NCBI GenBank assembly: GCA_903857495.1
Contig: CAIOFF010000029.1
Span: 1 to 64,000, forward strand
Direction of reading: 5' to 3'
DNA length: 64,000 nt
Origin: an uncultured Holophagaceae bacterium
GTDB lineage: Bacteria > Acidobacteriota > Holophagae > Holophagales > Holophagaceae
Positions 38,578 through 52,254 of this stretch are shown here, in pieces (positions within the stretch are counted from its first letter, which is position 1; each line of letters starts with the position of its first letter). Made by a program: the position numbers and the translations under genes. Below the pieces are notes generated by a model that was not told the origin of the DNA, did no database searches, and saw nothing but the letters and a program-made list of their open reading frames with translations.

Positions 38578-39786
38578 ATGGCCCACCTGACCGCCTCGAT
38601 GTCCCTGGAGACCCAGGCCGTGCACGCGGGCCGCGAGGTGCTGCACGAGCAGGGCATCCACGCGCTGCCCATCGACCTCAGCAGCACCTACCCCCTGCCG
38701 GACCTGGAGGCGGGCGGCCGCAGCCTGGAGGCCCTGGCCCTGGGCGGCCTGCCCGAGGGCAGCCCCGTCTATTCGCGGCTCTACAACCCCACGGTGGCCC
38801 GCTATGAGCAGGCCCTGGCGCAACTGGAAGGCGCTGAGGAGGCCGTGGCCTTCGGCTCCGGCATGGCAGCGGTGACCGCCAGCCTCATGGCCGCCCGGCA
38901 ACGGGGCGGCCACATCGTCGCCGTGCGCCCTCTCTACGGCGGCACGGACCACCTACTGGCCTCGGGGATGCTGGGCCTGGAGGTGACCTGGGCCGAGGCC
39001 GATGGCATCACGGCGGCCCTCCGCCCGGACACGGCCATGGTCCTGGTGGAGACCCCCGCCAACCCGACGATGGCGATGCTCGACCTCGAGGATGTGGTCC
39101 GCCAGGCAGGCCGGGTGCCCGTGCTCGTGGACAACACCTTCGCCACACCCATCCTGCAGAACCCCATCAAGCACGGCGCGACCCTGGTCCTCCACAGCGC
39201 CACGAAGTTCCTGGGCGGCCACGGCGACGTGCTGGCGGGGCTGGTGGCCACCAACCACAACTGGGCCACGGAGCTGCGCAAGGTGCGCGTCATCACCGGG
39301 AACGTGCTGCACCCCCTGGCCGCCTACCTGCTGCACCGGGGCCTGCCCACGCTGCCACTGCGGGTGCGCGCCCAGCAGGCCGGGGCCCAGGTGCTGGCGG
39401 AGCTGCTGGCCCAGCACCCGGCCGTGACCGCGGTGCACTACCCGGGCCTGGCGGGCGGGGATCCCCTGGGCCTCCTGGGCCGCCAGCTGAAGGGGCCGGG
39501 CTCGCTCATGGCCTTCGAGCTGAAGGGCGGCTTCGAGGCTGCCGCCACGGTCATGGCCGAGGTAAGACTCATGACGCCCGCCGTGTCCCTCGGCAGCGTG
39601 GATACCCTGATCCAGCACCCGGCCGCTCTCACCCACCGCGTGGTGAATGCCGCGGCCCGGGAACACAGCGGCGTCTCCCAGTCCCTCATGCGCCTGTCCG
39701 TGGGCCTTGAGAGCCCCGACGACCTCTGGGCCGACCTGGACCAGGCCCTTGTCAAGGCCATGGCCCGCTGCGCAGCGCACGCTTGA
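38578..39786 (+). CDS. PLP-dependent trans-sulfuration enzyme (methionine gamma-lyase / cystathionine gamma-lyase family)
   Basis: This is a 402-residue pyridoxal-phosphate enzyme acting on sulfur amino acids. Family motifs are SRLYNPTVARYEQALAQLEG (phosphate site), AVAFGSGMAAVTASLM, VDNTFATPILQNPI and the PLP-lysine segment HSATKFLGGHGDVLAG. In methionine gamma-lyases a Cys follows YG in the substrate loop; here the loop reads PLYGGTDHLL, as in cystathionine gamma-lyases, so the exact reaction is open. A divergent Lrp regulator favours an amino-acid catabolic role. GAGGAGG and GGAG lie upstream of the ATG. Confidence 0.85.
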   Translation: MAHLTASMSLETQAVHAGREVLHEQGIHALPIDLSSTYPLPDLEAGGRSLEALALGGLPEGSPVYSRLYNPTVARYEQALAQLEGAEEAVAFGSGMAAVTASLMAARQRGGHIVAVRPLYGGTDHLLASGMLGLEVTWAEADGITAALRPDTAMVLVETPANPTMAMLDLEDVVRQAGRVPVLVDNTFATPILQNPIKHGATLVLHSATKFLGGHGDVLAGLVATNHNWATELRKVRVITGNVLHPLAAYLLHRGLPTLPLRVRAQQAGAQVLAELLAQHPAVTAVHYPGLAGGDPLGLLGRQLKGPGSLMAFELKGGFEAAATVMAEVRLMTPAVSLGSVDTLIQHPAALTHRVVNAAAREHSGVSQSLMRLSVGLESPDDLWADLDQALVKAMARCAAHA

Positions 39787-39851
39787 GGCCGACAGAAAAA
39801 GAGAAACTGATTATCGGCCTTGCTTCGCCAAATTTGGTTTTCAAAGATCTC

Positions 39852-40090
39852 CACCAAGGACACGAAGAAATACCCGGAAGGACCACGAAGGCGCAGTCAT
39901 CGCGCCGACAGGGCATCCGGGCCTGGGGCCCCCGGTCGCGTGCGACCGGCCAAGGGGGCGGCGGCTGGAACGGCTTTTTGGGGCCGCAGCCAGCCGCCGC
40001 CCCCTTGGGGATGCCCGAGGTGAGTCCGGGCGCATTCGTGTGCTTCCTGCGCCCGCAGGGCGTCTTCATGTCCTTCGTGGTGCGCCTTTT
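39852..40090. repeat. CACGAAG-type nested inverted repeat with three-way-junction core
   Basis: Nested complementary arms are visible. Outer CCACGAAGG (39883-39891) pairs with CCTTCGTGG (40072-40080), and CACGAAGGCGC (39884-39894) also pairs imperfectly with 40030-40040. Within it, GGGCATCC (39911-39918) pairs with GGATGCCC (40009-40016). Inside that helix are CCGGTCGC-gt-GCGACCGG (39932-39949) and a perfect 19-bp stem (39950-39968 with 39990-40008). The inner helices meet like a three-way junction. It occupies most of the 495-base gap between the trans-sulfuration gene and recG, which otherwise holds no convincing gene. Confidence 0.7.
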
Positions 40091-40270
40091 GGGCGGAGTC
40101 TGGCCGATAGCCAGGAAAGAGGAAACCACTCTCGCAGAGAACTGACGAGAAGGCGGAGGGGCGCTGAGAAGGGCAGACGTGTCTTCCTCTGCGAACCTCC
40201 GTTCCCTCATCTTTTCTCCGCGAGGGTCGTTCTCCTGCACGCAGGTATTCCGCTCCTGGCGCGGGGGCTC
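40091..40270. other. Rest of the gap before recG, no gene seen
   Basis: The remaining 180 bases before recG have no start codon with a ribosome site and no open frame with protein-like composition. Short purine-rich and pyrimidine-rich stretches are present. Nothing else is recognised. Confidence 0.5.
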
Positions 40271-40276
40271 TAGGCT
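40271..40276 (+). promoter_or_regulatory. Candidate leaderless -10 box (TAGGCT)
   Basis: TAGGCT lies five bases before the recG ATG. The only purine run (GAGG) is one base from the ATG, too close to serve as a ribosome site. Confidence 0.3.
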
Positions 40277-40281
40277 GAGGC

Positions 40282-42366
40282 ATGTCTCTGGCTCCGCTCC
40301 CGCTGTCGTCCAAGGTCACGGTCCTCCCGGGCCTGGGCCAGGCGCGGGCCGTGGCGCTGCAGGAGGCGGGCATCGACACCCTGCGGGACCTGCTGTGGGA
40401 GCTGCCCTTCCGCTATGTGGACCGGGGCAGCCTGAAGTCCCTGGGCAGCCTCGATATGCGGGGCTTCGAGCCCCAGGAGCCGGGCCTCGTGACGGTGCTG
40501 GGCACCCTCCAGGACCTGCGTCAGAGCACCACCCGGGTGCAGCACATGACCCTCACGGAGGCGCTGCTGGGCGATGGCACCGGCACCCTGCGCCTCATCT
40601 GGTTCAACCAGCCCTACCTGGGCCGGACCCTGAAGGTGGGCGACCGCCTGCTGGTCTTCGGGTCCCTGGCCGTGGGCCGGCACGGCCTGGAGATGCGGGC
40701 CCCCCAGTTCGAGCTCATGGAGCGCACCGGCGACATCGGCTGGGTGCGCCGCTACCTGCCCCTCTACCGGCGCCTGGGTAAGCTGCCTGGCCGGGCCCGG
40801 CAGAAGCTGGTGGCGGAGGCGCTGCCCCGGGTCCACCTCGCGGAGGAGTGGCTGCCCCTGGAGCTCTCCCGGGACCTGCCGGACACCCTGACGGCCCTGC
40901 GCCTGCTGCACGAGCCGCCGGATGAGAGCGATCCCCGGGCCCTGGAGGAGGGCAGCACCCCGGCCCACAGCCGCCTGGCCTCGGAGGAGCTCTTCGCCTT
41001 CGCCCTGGGCGTGGCCCAGCGCCGGGATGGCCGCCTGAAGCGGGCGGGCCTGAAGGTGCCCACCTCGCCGGAGCTGCGGGAGCGGCTGCGCGGCTTTCTG
41101 CCCTTCCACCTCACCGCCGCCCAGCGCCGGGCCTTCCGGGAGCTGGTGGCGGACCTGACCTCGGGCCGGGTCATGAACCGCCTGCTCCAGGGCGACGTGG
41201 GCAGCGGCAAGACCCTGGTGGCCCTGCTCGCCATGGCCATGGTGGCCGAGACGGGCGGGCAGGGGGCCCTGCTGGTGCCTACGGAGGTCCTGGCCCGCCA
41301 GCACGCGGACAGCTTCCGCCGCTACCTGGGCCCCCAGGCCGGGGCCCTGCAGCTGCTGCTGGGGGGCATGAAGGCGGCCGAGAAGCGGGCGGCCCTGGCC
41401 CGCATCGCCAGTGGCGAGGCCCGCTATGTGCTGGGTACCCACGCCCTCTTCCAGGAGGCCGTAGCCTTCCACCGACTGCAGCTGGTGGTGGTGGATGAGC
41501 AGCACCGCTTCGGCGTGAAGCAGCGGGAAGCTCTCAAGGAGAAGGGCGGCGACCCACACTGGCTGGTCATGAGCGCCACGCCCATCCCCCGCTCCCTGGC
41601 CCTGGCGGTGTTCGGTGACCTGGACCAGAGCGTCCTCGACGAGCTGCCCCCGGGCCGCCAGCCCATCACGACGAAGCTGCACAAGCCGGAGTTTGCGGAG
41701 CGGGCCTGGGAGCGGGTGCGCAAGGAGCTGGCCCAGGGCCGCCAGGCCTTCGTGGTGAGCCCGAGCATCGACCCCTCGGACGAGGCCAAGGTGCCCCTGC
41801 GCGACATCCAGGCCATGGAGGCGCTGCTGCGCGGCATCTTCCCCGATGAGGTCATCGAGGTGGTCCACGGCCGCCTCAAGGCAGACGAGATGGCCGCCCG
41901 CATGGGACGCTTCGTGCGGGGCGAGGCCGGCATCCTGCTGGCCACCACCGTGATCGAGGTGGGTGTGGACGTGCCCAACGCCACGGTGATGGTGGTGGAC
42001 CACGCCGAGCGCTTCGGTCTCAGCCAGCTCCATCAGCTGCGGGGCCGGGTGGGCCGCGGCGAGCACCCCAGCCACTTCCTCATGCTGAGCGGCTCCGAGA
42101 CCGAGCGCCTCCAGACCCTGGTGGAGACCCAGGACGGCTTCCGCATCGCCCAGCGCGACCTGGAGCTGCGCGGACCTGGCGAGTTCTTCGGGGTGAGGCA
42201 GGCGGGGCTGCCGAAGTTCCAGGTGGCAGACATCGTGCGCGACCGGGCGCTACTCCTGCGCTGTCGCGAGGCCGCAGACCGGGCCCTGGCCCTGGGTCTC
42301 AGCGAAGCGCAGTCCCAGTGGCTGCGGCGGGAGCAGGCGCGGCTGAAGCTGGCGGAGATCAGCTGA
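40282..42366 (+). CDS. recG: ATP-dependent DNA helicase RecG
   Basis: This branch-migrating helicase remodels stalled forks and Holliday junctions. It has 694 residues, full length. An N-terminal helix-hairpin-helix-like segment and OB wedge domain (about 10-160: LPGLGQARAVALQEAGI, TVLGTLQDLRQS) is followed by the helicase core: GDVGSGKTLVALLA (Walker A), DEQHRFGVKQR (motif II, DEQH), MSATPIPRSLAL (III), TTVIEVGVDVPNA and HQLRGRVGRGEHPS (V, VI). The C-terminal TRG-like segment DLELRGPGEFFGVRQAG is present. It ends nine bases from the converging coaD gene. Confidence 0.95.
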   Translation: MSLAPLPLSSKVTVLPGLGQARAVALQEAGIDTLRDLLWELPFRYVDRGSLKSLGSLDMRGFEPQEPGLVTVLGTLQDLRQSTTRVQHMTLTEALLGDGTGTLRLIWFNQPYLGRTLKVGDRLLVFGSLAVGRHGLEMRAPQFELMERTGDIGWVRRYLPLYRRLGKLPGRARQKLVAEALPRVHLAEEWLPLELSRDLPDTLTALRLLHEPPDESDPRALEEGSTPAHSRLASEELFAFALGVAQRRDGRLKRAGLKVPTSPELRERLRGFLPFHLTAAQRRAFRELVADLTSGRVMNRLLQGDVGSGKTLVALLAMAMVAETGGQGALLVPTEVLARQHADSFRRYLGPQAGALQLLLGGMKAAEKRAALARIASGEARYVLGTHALFQEAVAFHRLQLVVVDEQHRFGVKQREALKEKGGDPHWLVMSATPIPRSLALAVFGDLDQSVLDELPPGRQPITTKLHKPEFAERAWERVRKELAQGRQAFVVSPSIDPSDEAKVPLRDIQAMEALLRGIFPDEVIEVVHGRLKADEMAARMGRFVRGEAGILLATTVIEVGVDVPNATVMVVDHAERFGLSQLHQLRGRVGRGEHPSHFLMLSGSETERLQTLVETQDGFRIAQRDLELRGPGEFFGVRQAGLPKFQVADIVRDRALLLRCREAADRALALGLSEAQSQWLRREQARLKLAEIS

Positions 42367-48619: not shown

Positions 48620-50851
48620 ATGAAACCAAGGTGGTGGCTGGTTCTGCTGGTGCTGTTGGCAGGGTTCGGGGTGCTGGGACTGGGGGGGCGGCAGATCGCC
48701 CAGAATGCCCCGCCGATCCCGCAGCGGGTGCTGGCCGAGGACGGCACCCTGCTGGTGGGACCCGGTCAGATCCTCGCGGGCCAGGTCAGCTACCTGGGCC
48801 ACGGCGGCCAGCACATCGGCTCCATCCTGGGGCACGGCTCCTACCTGGCGCCGGACTGGACCGCGAAGGCCCTGCATCAGTGGGCGGCGGGCACCCTGGC
48901 CGGTGTGCAGGCCAAGGGCGTTTCCCCGGCGGAAGCCAAGGCCCAGACCATATCTTTATTTCAGAATAATAAGTATGAAATAGCCACCGACACCCTGAAG
49001 CTGGATGCCACCCAGGCCCAGGCCTACCGCCAGACCCGCGCCGAGCTGGCCCGCATCGCCGTGGAAGGGGACAAGGAAGCCGCCATTCCCGCCCACTGGA
49101 TTCCCACCCAGGCCGAGGGCGAGCGGGTGGCCGACTTCTGGCTGTGGACCGCCTGGACTGCCGCCGCGCGGCGGCCGGGTTCCGCGGCCAGCTACACGCA
49201 GAACTGGCCCCACGAGCCCCTGGTGGGCAACAGCATCACGCCCATCAGCCACCTCTGGAGCATCCTCTCGATCATCCTGCTGATCCTGGGCGTGGGCCTC
49301 ATGGTCTGGCACCACGCCAGCCAGCCCGCCGAGGAGTTCCCCGCCCCCCAGGCCATCCCGGCGGCGCCCGCCACCCCCAGCCAGCGCTGGTCGGCGGTCT
49401 ACTTTGCCGTGGCCATGGCCCTGTTCCTGGTACAGATCGGCATGGGTGTCCTGACCGCCCATGACGCCGTGGAAGGCAACGCGCTCTATGGCGTGGACCT
49501 GTCCCGCATCCTGCCCTACGCGGCCTCGCGCACGTGGCACCTGCAGCTGGCCGTCTTCTGGATCGCCACCTGCTGGCTGGCCACGGGCCTCTACCTGGGT
49601 CCCAAGCTCAGCGCCAAGGAGCCCAAGGGCCAGTGGATCGGCGTGGCGGGCCTGCTGGTGGCCCTGGTGGTGGTCGTCGTCGGAGCCCTCGCGGGCGCCC
49701 ACCAGGCCATCCTGGGCAAGCTGTCCGGCTCCTTCCTGCTGGGGCATCAGGGTTATGAGTATGTGGAGCTGGGCCGCCTCTGGCAGATCCTGCTCACGGT
49801 GGGCATGGTTTTCTGGTTGGTGATGGTGGTGCGAGCCCTGCTGCCCGCCCTGCGCGGCGAAAAGGGCCGCGTGGGCCTGCTCAAGCTCTTCGTGCTGTCC
49901 GCCGTTGCCATCCCGCTGTTCTACTCCGCGGGCTTCATGTACACCCGCGAGACGCACATCGCCATGGCCGAATACTGGCGCTGGTGGGTGGTCCATCTCT
50001 GGGTGGAGGGCTTCTTCGAGGTCTTCGCCACCGTGGCCATCGCGCTGCTCACCACCCGCATGGGCCTGCTGCGCGAGAGCACTGCGCTGCGCGCCGTGGG
50101 CCTTTCCGTAGGCCTCTTCCTCGGCAGCGGCATCATCGGCACCTTCCACCACCTCTACTACACGGGCTCCCCGGCCTCCATCGCGGCCCTGGGCTCCGTG
50201 TTCAGCGCCCTGGAGATCGTGCCTCTCACCATCGTGGGTTTCGAGATCGCCCAGAGCCTCAAGGCCGGCCGCGCCCTGGGCAGCGGCTACGAGTGGCCCT
50301 TCCGGTTCTTCGCGGCCGTCTGCTTCTGGAACCTGGTGGGCGCCGGCGTCTTCGGCATGCTCATCAACCCGCCCTCGATCCTCTACTTCAGCCAGGGGCT
50401 CAACACTACGCCCATCCACAGCCACGCCGCGCTCTTCGGGGTCTACGGCTTCCTGGCCATCTCTCTCATGCTGTTCGCCCTGCGCGGCATGACCCCGGAC
50501 CGGGCCTGGGACGAGAAGTGGCTGCGCTACGGCTTCTGGGGCCTGAACCTGGGCCTGGTCCTCATGTTGGTGTTTTCGCTGATCCCCAGTGGCCTCTACC
50601 AGTTCGTGCAGAGCCTCGAGCATGGCACCTGGTATGCCCGCAGCGCGGCCGTGGTGCAGAGCCCCCTCATGCGCACCTTCACCTGGCTGCGCATGCCCGG
50701 CGATGTGCTCTTCGGCCTCGGCGCCCTCTCGGTGATCCTCTTCACCTTCAAGGCCGTCATCGGCGCCTGGGGCTGGCGGACCGCGGAAGAGACCGCACCC
50801 GCCAAGCCTGAAGCCGAGGGCGCCCCCGCCTTCGCCGCCGGGAGAGATTGA
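48620..50851 (+). CDS. norZ: Quinol-dependent nitric oxide reductase (qNor)
   Basis: This single-subunit membrane enzyme reduces NO to N2O with quinol electrons; 743 residues. An N-terminal transmembrane helix and periplasmic domain (about 30-220, with VLAEDGTLLVGPGQILAGQV) is fused to a 12-helix haem-copper-oxidase-like domain. That domain has His ligands in YAASRTWHLQLAVFW, GTFHHLYYTG and IHSHAALFGVYG. ATG 48620 has GGAGG five bases upstream. About 34 bases near 48950 are strikingly AT-rich although the encoded SLFQNNKYE region looks conserved. NO detoxification or denitrification is implied. Confidence 0.92.
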   Translation: MKPRWWLVLLVLLAGFGVLGLGGRQIAQNAPPIPQRVLAEDGTLLVGPGQILAGQVSYLGHGGQHIGSILGHGSYLAPDWTAKALHQWAAGTLAGVQAKGVSPAEAKAQTISLFQNNKYEIATDTLKLDATQAQAYRQTRAELARIAVEGDKEAAIPAHWIPTQAEGERVADFWLWTAWTAAARRPGSAASYTQNWPHEPLVGNSITPISHLWSILSIILLILGVGLMVWHHASQPAEEFPAPQAIPAAPATPSQRWSAVYFAVAMALFLVQIGMGVLTAHDAVEGNALYGVDLSRILPYAASRTWHLQLAVFWIATCWLATGLYLGPKLSAKEPKGQWIGVAGLLVALVVVVVGALAGAHQAILGKLSGSFLLGHQGYEYVELGRLWQILLTVGMVFWLVMVVRALLPALRGEKGRVGLLKLFVLSAVAIPLFYSAGFMYTRETHIAMAEYWRWWVVHLWVEGFFEVFATVAIALLTTRMGLLRESTALRAVGLSVGLFLGSGIIGTFHHLYYTGSPASIAALGSVFSALEIVPLTIVGFEIAQSLKAGRALGSGYEWPFRFFAAVCFWNLVGAGVFGMLINPPSILYFSQGLNTTPIHSHAALFGVYGFLAISLMLFALRGMTPDRAWDEKWLRYGFWGLNLGLVLMLVFSLIPSGLYQFVQSLEHGTWYARSAAVVQSPLMRTFTWLRMPGDVLFGLGALSVILFTFKAVIGAWGWRTAEETAPAKPEAEGAPAFAAGRD

Positions 50852-50883
50852 TCGGGGCTCGACTGCCAGAGTGAAGTTATTTT

Positions 50884-50953
50884 CACCACGAAGACAACGA
50901 AGACCACGAAGCACGGAACCGGCTTGGATGAGCGGGCCTTCTTCGTGGTCTTC
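50884..50953. repeat. CACGAAG-type dispersed inverted repeat
   Basis: GAAGACCACGAAG (50899-50911) and CTTCGTGGTCTTC (50941-50953) are perfect 13-bp inverted arms around 29 bases. The left side extends as further CACGAAGA-like units from 50884. It belongs with the element at 39.85-40.09 kb and resembles the CACCAAG family in build. Confidence 0.75.
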
Positions 50954-51007
50954 CTGTTGCCCCTGTCGTTTCCCCTCCAAGTCCCTGCGGTCTCCTGCGG
51001 GTTAAGA

Positions 51008-51051
51008 GTGCCTAACAAAACCCCGCGGCTCCGTGGGGTTTTGTTAGGCAC
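51008..51051. terminator. Perfect 17-bp hairpin, bidirectional terminator-like
   Basis: The arm GTGCCTAACAAAACCCC is repeated in inverse at 51035-51051 around the ten-base loop GCGGCTCCGT. T-rich DNA inside the stem gives a U-run in either direction. It lies between the nor gene and the acyltransferase gene, and its core is shared with the gltD hairpin at 26.94 kb. Confidence 0.65.
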
Positions 51052-51075
51052 GATAAGCTCGAAGCTGGAGCGGGC

Positions 51076-52254
51076 ATGACCTTGGATTCAGAGGACAGAA
51101 ACCCTGGGGCCAGAGCCGAAGCCCTGCCGAGGGACCCCGGCATCGACCTGCTGCGGGGGCTCTCCATCGTGCTGGTGGTCATGCACCACGTGGGTCTCCG
51201 CATCCCCCTCAAGGCGGGGGTGCTGGCCACCTTCCTGCCGCGCTGGTGCCTGGATGCCCTGATCTACAACGGCACCGAGGCCGTGTTCATCTTCTTCGTG
51301 ATCTCGGGCTTCCTCATCGCCTCCCACAGCCTGGTGCGCTGGGGCAGCCTGGCGGCCCTGGATGTCCGGGCCTTCTACACCCGCCGCGCCGCCCGCATCC
51401 TGCCCTCCCTCCTGATCCTGGTGGCGGTGCTGAGCCTGCTGCACCTGGTCGGGGCGCGGGACTACACCATCACCAGGGCCTCCCAGTCGCTGGCCCGGGC
51501 CATCCTGGCGGCCCTGGGCCTGCACCTGAACTGGTACGAGGGCCTGACGGGCTACCTGCCGGGCAACTGGGATGTGCTGTGGTCCCTCTCCATCGAGGAG
51601 CTCTTCTACCTGGGCTTCCCTCTGCTGTGCCTGGGCCTGCGCCGCCGGCGCGTCCTGGTGCCGGCGCTCCTGCTGCTGGCGCTGTCGCTGCCCCTCACCC
51701 GGGCGGCCCTGGCGGCCAATCCCATCTGGCAGGAGAAGGCCACCCTGCCGGGCATGGCCGCCATCGCCACGGGGGTTCTGGGGGCCCTGCTGGCTGCCGC
51801 GGTTCGCCCAAGGTGGACCTGGCTGCCGGGCCTCCTGCGGATGCTGGGCTGGGCGGGCGTGGTGGCCGTGCTCTGCTTCGAGAGCTGGCTCTGGCCCCGC
51901 CTGGGCAACGGGAGCCTGCTGCTCCTGACCGGTGGCACGCTGCTGCTCCTGCTGGGTTTTCACTGGCGCCCGCCGGTCCAGCGCCCCGGGGTGGCCTTCG
52001 GCTGGTTGCGTTCTTTCGGGCGGCTCAGCTACGAGGTCTACCTCACCCACATGTTCATCATCTGGCCCGTGGTCCGGGCCTACAAAGCCTACGGTGGCGG
52101 GCCGCGCTGGGGCATCCTCTGGTACCTGCCGGCCCTGGCTGCGTCCTGGGGGCTCGGCTGGCTGGTGGCGAGATTCCTCTCAACCCCCTGTGAGCAGTGT
52201 CTCCGGGGGCGGCTGGGAAGCATCCAGCCACCTGTCTCAGCCGCTGTTTCTTAG
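51076..52254 (+). CDS. Acyltransferase 3 family membrane protein
   Basis: This is a 392-residue multi-pass O-acyltransferase of the OafA/YrhL type, which adds acyl groups to surface sugars or lipids. About ten hydrophobic segments are seen. Family motifs are GIDLLRGLSIVLVVMHHVG with its His, FFVISGFLIASHSL, FYTRRAARILPSLL and WDVLWSLSIEELFYLGFPLL. GGAG precedes the ATG. Its last 18 bases overlap the converging ppc gene. The substrate cannot be inferred. Confidence 0.85.
   Translation: MTLDSEDRNPGARAEALPRDPGIDLLRGLSIVLVVMHHVGLRIPLKAGVLATFLPRWCLDALIYNGTEAVFIFFVISGFLIASHSLVRWGSLAALDVRAFYTRRAARILPSLLILVAVLSLLHLVGARDYTITRASQSLARAILAALGLHLNWYEGLTGYLPGNWDVLWSLSIEELFYLGFPLLCLGLRRRRVLVPALLLLALSLPLTRAALAANPIWQEKATLPGMAAIATGVLGALLAAAVRPRWTWLPGLLRMLGWAGVVAVLCFESWLWPRLGNGSLLLLTGGTLLLLLGFHWRPPVQRPGVAFGWLRSFGRLSYEVYLTHMFIIWPVVRAYKAYGGGPRWGILWYLPALAASWGLGWLVARFLSTPCEQCLRGRLGSIQPPVSAAVS

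Follow-up and report, generated by a model that had tools for sequence, protein, structure and literature searches.

In the genome of an uncultured Holophagaceae bacterium of the genus Geothrix, a set of nested complementary arms lies between a gene for a Cys/Met-metabolism enzyme (PF01053) and recG (PF17191, PF19833). What is this element, and why is its pairing so regular? We analyzed the surrounding 64,000 nucleotides (contig CAIOFF010000029.1, positions 1 to 64,000), which we call the window and to which all coordinates refer unless another contig is named. We conclude that the element is an IS1595-type MITE whose structured cargo is unusual. As the overall explanation for the sequence at 39806-40115, we give this a probability of about 0.9.

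Results

Ends, target duplications, and an empty site

The preliminary description placed the element at 39852-40090, but it is larger: the MITE runs from 39806 to 40115 (310 bp), and the target duplications lie outside it (Table 1). Its inverted ends are CCTGRTTATCGGC, and copies of the element terminate in CCTGGTTATCGGC and its complement. Past the left terminal repeat, an imperfect inverted repeat extends to 39832. The MITE is 166 bases upstream of the start of recG and has the same direction. A simple codon-usage gene caller predicted no genes within 39786-40282 (open frames do exist there). At under 500 bp and without a gene, the element is as expected of a MITE.

Table 1. Features of the MITE and its target site in the window
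Feature	Position	Strand	Comment
Target duplication, left copy	39798-39805	.	AAAGAGAA; 7/8 identical to right copy
Terminal inverted repeat, left	39806-39818	+	Same end as the IS1595 elements of G016
Left outer arm, two CACGAAG-type repeats	39851-39868	+	Repeats at 39852-39867; consensus-structure helices 1 and 2
Third CACGAAG repeat, left arm	39884-39890	+	Counterpart at 40034-40040
Four-way-junction core	39909-40017	+	Covariance model match, 93.7 bits; covariation
Core closing helix	39911-39918/40009-40016	+	8/8
Core hairpin 1	39919-39923/39927-39931	+	5 bp
Core hairpin 2	39932-39939/39942-39949 (39932-39938/39943-39949 in the four-way junction)	+	8/8
Core hairpin 3	39950-39968/39990-40008	+	19/19
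Small right-arm hairpin (GCGCCC GCA GGGCGT)	40049-40063	+	Helix 7 of alignment A1
Right outer arm	40063-40080	+	Complement of left CACGAAG-type arm, 89%; 40064-40080 without the base shared with the small hairpin
Terminal inverted repeat, right	40103-40115	-	MITE end
Target duplication, right copy	40116-40123	.	AAAGAGGA

Other copies have similar duplications. Both ends could be located, with at most 4 mismatches each, in 26 copies; in 8 of these, the flanking 8-mers agree at 7 or 8 positions, and none of 20,000 permutations reached as many. In these 26 copies, there was no peak at any other duplication length from 4 to 12. In a wider set, 29 of 53 distinct two-ended elements had a duplication that matched at 7 or 8 of the 8 positions.

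One relative retains the empty site: the recG locus of G069 aligns, with no gaps, to the joined flanks of the window MITE with one copy of the duplication. We compared 30 recG loci (the window's own and 29 others from Geothrix; 16 more genomes with matches to recG were left out, and some of the 30 loci reach just ~300 bases upstream). The MITE was present at 0 of the 29 other loci, so we see no special tie of the element to recG. We also note another palindrome, whose arms are of the CTCTCGCAGAG type, immediately next to the MITE at 40124-40240. G003 and G069 have this palindrome at the corresponding locus; in G022 and G029, both it and the MITE are missing.

An IS1595-family partner

When ten more genomes were scanned for the end pattern, G016, a congener, proved to have pairs of ends separated by 1.7 to 3.8 kb. 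The genes that they enclose are IS1595-family transposases (PF12762, PF12760, NF033547), and these elements are flanked by 8-bp duplications. The IS and MITE ends have CCTGRTTATCGGC in common as well as much of the subsequent CTCAGCC. Relatives of the transposase are found in 18 of the 47 genomes of the genus. In a collection of named genomes, the extended end pattern was present in 97 stretches, and among the matches listed, 79 of 80 bear Holophagaceae, Geothrix, or Acidobacteria names. Among the matches listed, one is outside the Acidobacteriota names (L277, Mesorhizobium silamurunense).

In the window's own draft genome, the transposase is represented only by a 60-codon fragment (42% identity) that contains a stop; we found no intact gene. 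An intact gene would be required for the MITE to move today but not for it to have descended from such elements. We infer that an IS1595-family transposase moved the window MITE in trans. Since only the fragment is found in its genome, the MITE is probably stranded there now.

Two observations from G016 concern what lies next to these ends. A 3.8-kb element with the same ends (L198:397-4168) encodes a transposase and an 809-amino-acid protein that is weakly similar to Alw26I-type restriction methyltransferases (TIGR02987, far below the cut-off) and is possibly a defence cargo. At L206:226-1526, a RhuM-family gene (PF13310) directly adjoins a transposon end.

Copies of the element and distribution of the core

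A 481-base query matched the window copy and about 40 more places in the same genome, at ~85-96% identity; many of these are at contig ends, and a copy that was broken by the assembly can count twice. Matches were found in 19 of 60 genomes (including the window's own), all from Geothrix, and in 0 of 23 genomes from outside the genus. A covariance model of the core, trained on 28 cores, matched 13 of 396 genomes from the phylum (2 of 209 genera). Across the Holophagaceae, it matched 21 of 77 genomes (20 of 47 Geothrix and 1 of 30 others; 134 matches summed).

The core and the transposon ends do not always occur together. Of the 89 cores in Geothrix, both ends are found within 2 mismatches for 24, at least one end for 55, and neither for 34. 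None of the 11 cores in G155 has either end. Shuffled flanks gave 2 of 500. Thus, the ends do not explain the core everywhere.

Separately, a few distant Acidobacteriota (G387, G392, G120, G208, and others) have very many occurrences of the motif CACGAAGNNCACGAAG. There are 217 matches in G387 versus 0 for a reversed control, and 126 of the 396 genomes from the phylum have any match. Several of these sites are short intergenic hairpins.

Within the window, the only strong forward match to the core is the one in Table 1. The preliminary description had also pointed to a related element at 50.9 kb. That sequence (50883-50960) shares the common CACGAAG arms, but it is a plain hairpin with neither core nor transposon ends: within 50600-51200, no transposon end is closer than 4 mismatches. 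Nearby, at 51007-51052, there is a long, near-perfect terminator-type hairpin (TGCCTAACAAAACCCC / GGGGTTTTGTTAGGCA) that is separate from the CACGAAG hairpin.

A four-way junction with compensatory changes

The nested arms that were noted before are exact, and the flanking CACGAAG-type arms are present as well (Table 1). The junction had been described as three-way, and this needs correction: an extra 5-bp hairpin (core hairpin 1) makes it a perfect four-way junction, with no unpaired base. The fold is much stronger than those of shuffled sequences (z = -7.7 for the + strand and -9.5 for the - strand), and 0 of 200 shuffles were as good on either strand.

Compensating changes in homologous copies had been named beforehand as a test of the fold, and the result is strongly positive. 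In alignment A1 (37 long copies, mean identity 70%), standard pairs make up 96.5% of 1921 pair cells, and 24 of 52 pairs show double-sided changes (the shuffled mean was 9.9, and 0 of 500 shuffles were as high). If the partner is shifted by 1-3 columns, pairing falls to 40-46%. Alignment A4 contains 35 cores from outside the model's training set, which were separately aligned and folded (mean identity 64%). It gave the same four-way junction, and 31 of 39 pairs were changed on both sides. Because a further alignment (A3) mixes reverse-strand matches to the long hairpin with true cores, our evidence for covariation rests on A1 and A4. The fold of the core is genuine and conserved.

We also compared G-U and A-C mispairs, counted as distinct pair-genome cases, in a test that is biased because the structure was predicted with G-U allowed. 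Helices 1-5 have similar numbers of each (13 versus 17), helix 6 leans towards G-U (16 versus 9), and so does helix 7 (15 versus 2). No Rfam 15 family reached its gathering score in the window; there were only weak microRNA-type chance matches.

Exchangeable arms and nesting

Around 100 cores, there are at least six kinds of tandem-repeat arms (CACGAAG, CGCGAA, CACCAAG, CAGAG/CAGAAG, GGTGATG, and GGGGATGA), and the two arms of each copy are complementary. The mean complementarity score within a copy is 46.0, as compared to 33.5 between copies and 22.6 for shuffled arms (maximum 39 in 500). The small right-arm hairpin is kept in most copies with CACGAAG arms and also occurs with other arm types. 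The same kinds of hairpins also exist without the core.

In 16 of the 53 two-ended elements, the flanks are more complementary to each other than the 95th percentile of mismatched flanks, although these 16 cases include orthologous or near-identical pairs (L002/L032, L195/L487, and L265/L316), so fewer are independent. These elements sit as if inside the loops of hairpins, which would explain the nesting.

L195 and L487 are at the same site in G006 and G025. They have the flanks, the outer CGCGAAG hairpin, and a variant of the right end in common; their arms differ and their cores have opposite orientations. The interior may have been exchanged between copies at this site. At orthologous sites, no hairpin was cleanly seen to have the core in one genome and lack it in another; we found empty sites and sites with a different element.

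Gene context

Copies of the element avoid genes: of 48 long copies, 2 overlap a predicted gene. Of the same 48, 25 are at co-directional junctions, 15 at convergent ones, and 8 at divergent ones. For short or partial copies (n = 40), the corresponding counts are 15, 23, and 2. The baseline is 390 junctions of at least 40 bp from 800 kb (232 co-directional, 55 convergent, and 103 divergent). The context counts rely on the simple gene caller, with duplicates and hits with under 500 bp of flank dropped and one hit per locus. By Fisher's test, convergent position has P = 4e-9 among short copies and P = 0.005 among long ones; these values serve as guides, since related copies are not independent. 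Most copies have a strong hairpin edged by A-rich and T-rich stretches. The convergent bias fits a role, or tolerance, at the ends of transcripts.

Discussion

We propose that an IS1595-type transposase mobilized this gene-free element in trans. Its cargo is a palindrome in which CACGAAG-type tandem repeats surround a four-way-junction core. The nesting may have arisen by repeated insertion of the element into the loops of intergenic tandem-repeat hairpins. Of the preliminary suggestions (a recombination or replication element, or a structured RNA), "recombination element" was broadly right, as this is a mobile DNA element. In 800 kb, 5 of 7 short hairpins of this kind that lack the core are at convergent junctions, which would suit a simple intrinsic terminator of the upstream gene, but the window copy has the ends and duplication of a unit that transposed. 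A scan of 39750-40290 for intrinsic terminators (GC-rich stem, loop of 3-8, and T run) found 0, with 0.6 expected. We consider a terminator very improbable, and as a full account, the insertion evidence rules it out. A regulatory RNA structure in the recG transcript has its position and direction in its favor and is, if anything, even less probable: other copies adjoin other genes at all types of junctions. A dedicated regulator of recG, as a conserved function, is ruled out by the 29 loci that lack the element and by the lack of an Rfam match. This particular insertion may still happen to affect recG.

What, then, keeps the arms paired? Our best guess, with roughly even odds, is that the strong hairpin terminates or insulates transcripts from both sides. 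A role at transcript ends would make insertion at gene ends tolerable and would keep the pairing under selection. The main rival is palindrome repair. Long quasi-palindromes are a classic substrate for template switching and gene conversion, and the arms of this element are long quasi-palindromes, so these processes could re-match the arms without any function for the fold. The near-equal numbers of G-U and A-C mispairs in helices 1-5 are as expected for pairing of DNA rather than RNA, and the G006/G025 site shows block replacement of the arms together with the core. Against this, helices 6 and 7 lean towards G-U (subject to the bias in that test), and a junction free of unpaired bases was kept in the 35 independent copies of A4. 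We see palindrome repair as a serious minority view. More tentatively, the core might be an independent module that settles into the loops of tandem-repeat hairpins, with the IS1595 ends as an outer layer that sometimes carries it. The same core is found between six arm types, it occurs in G155 without IS1595 ends, and hairpins of the same kinds exist without it. But we found neither a site where one hairpin occurs with and without the core nor a duplication around the core itself; no enzyme for the core is known, and PF01797 was found in 1 of 8 genomes. We doubt that the core is a new kind of small structured module that tolerates arms of entirely different sequence provided that they pair, and that moves in part inside IS1595-type ends and in part when whole interiors are exchanged between copies at occupied sites, although it might be.

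ERIC, Correia/NEMIS, RUP, and BOX are likewise palindromic intergenic repeats, and some of them are MITE-like and transcribed. We know of none with a four-way junction and exchangeable arms. In the literature outside subscription journals, we found no description of this element under Geothrix repeats, IS1595 or acidobacterial MITEs, or four-way junctions in MITEs; no mention of the arm sequences there; and, in a search on a link to GxxExxY, nothing relevant.

Three other described systems can be compared. ISApl4, of the IS1595 family, generates A/T-rich 8-bp repeats (PMC12561309). The window MITE likewise has 8-bp A/T-rich duplications, and its ends are common to family transposases in Geothrix relatives; unlike these ISs, it has no transposase gene, a structured palindrome as cargo, and a Holophagaceae-specific end sequence. 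MITEAba12 (PMC6382973) is similarly short and gene-free, has ends and a duplication length in common with a full element, and has intergenic A/T-rich targets. However, MITEAba12 has weak predicted structure and outward promoters, whereas the window MITE has a strong, covarying four-way junction and arms that are exchanged between copies. REP/BIME sequences (PMC3733652) are also dispersed intergenic palindromes with supposed roles at transcript ends, but REPs are 20-40 bp and are linked to RAYT transposases, whereas the window MITE is 310 bp with a target duplication. We rejected a REP element with a RAYT: the Y1 transposase (PF01797) is absent from the window's own genome and was found in 1 of the 8 genomes searched.

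In these elements, compensatory change maintains a perfect four-way junction within mobile DNA, and their many copies and likely enzyme make them a natural system for studying this. Repeated insertion into loops would also give a testable account of the nested CACGAAG-type hairpin repeats at the ends of bacterial genes.
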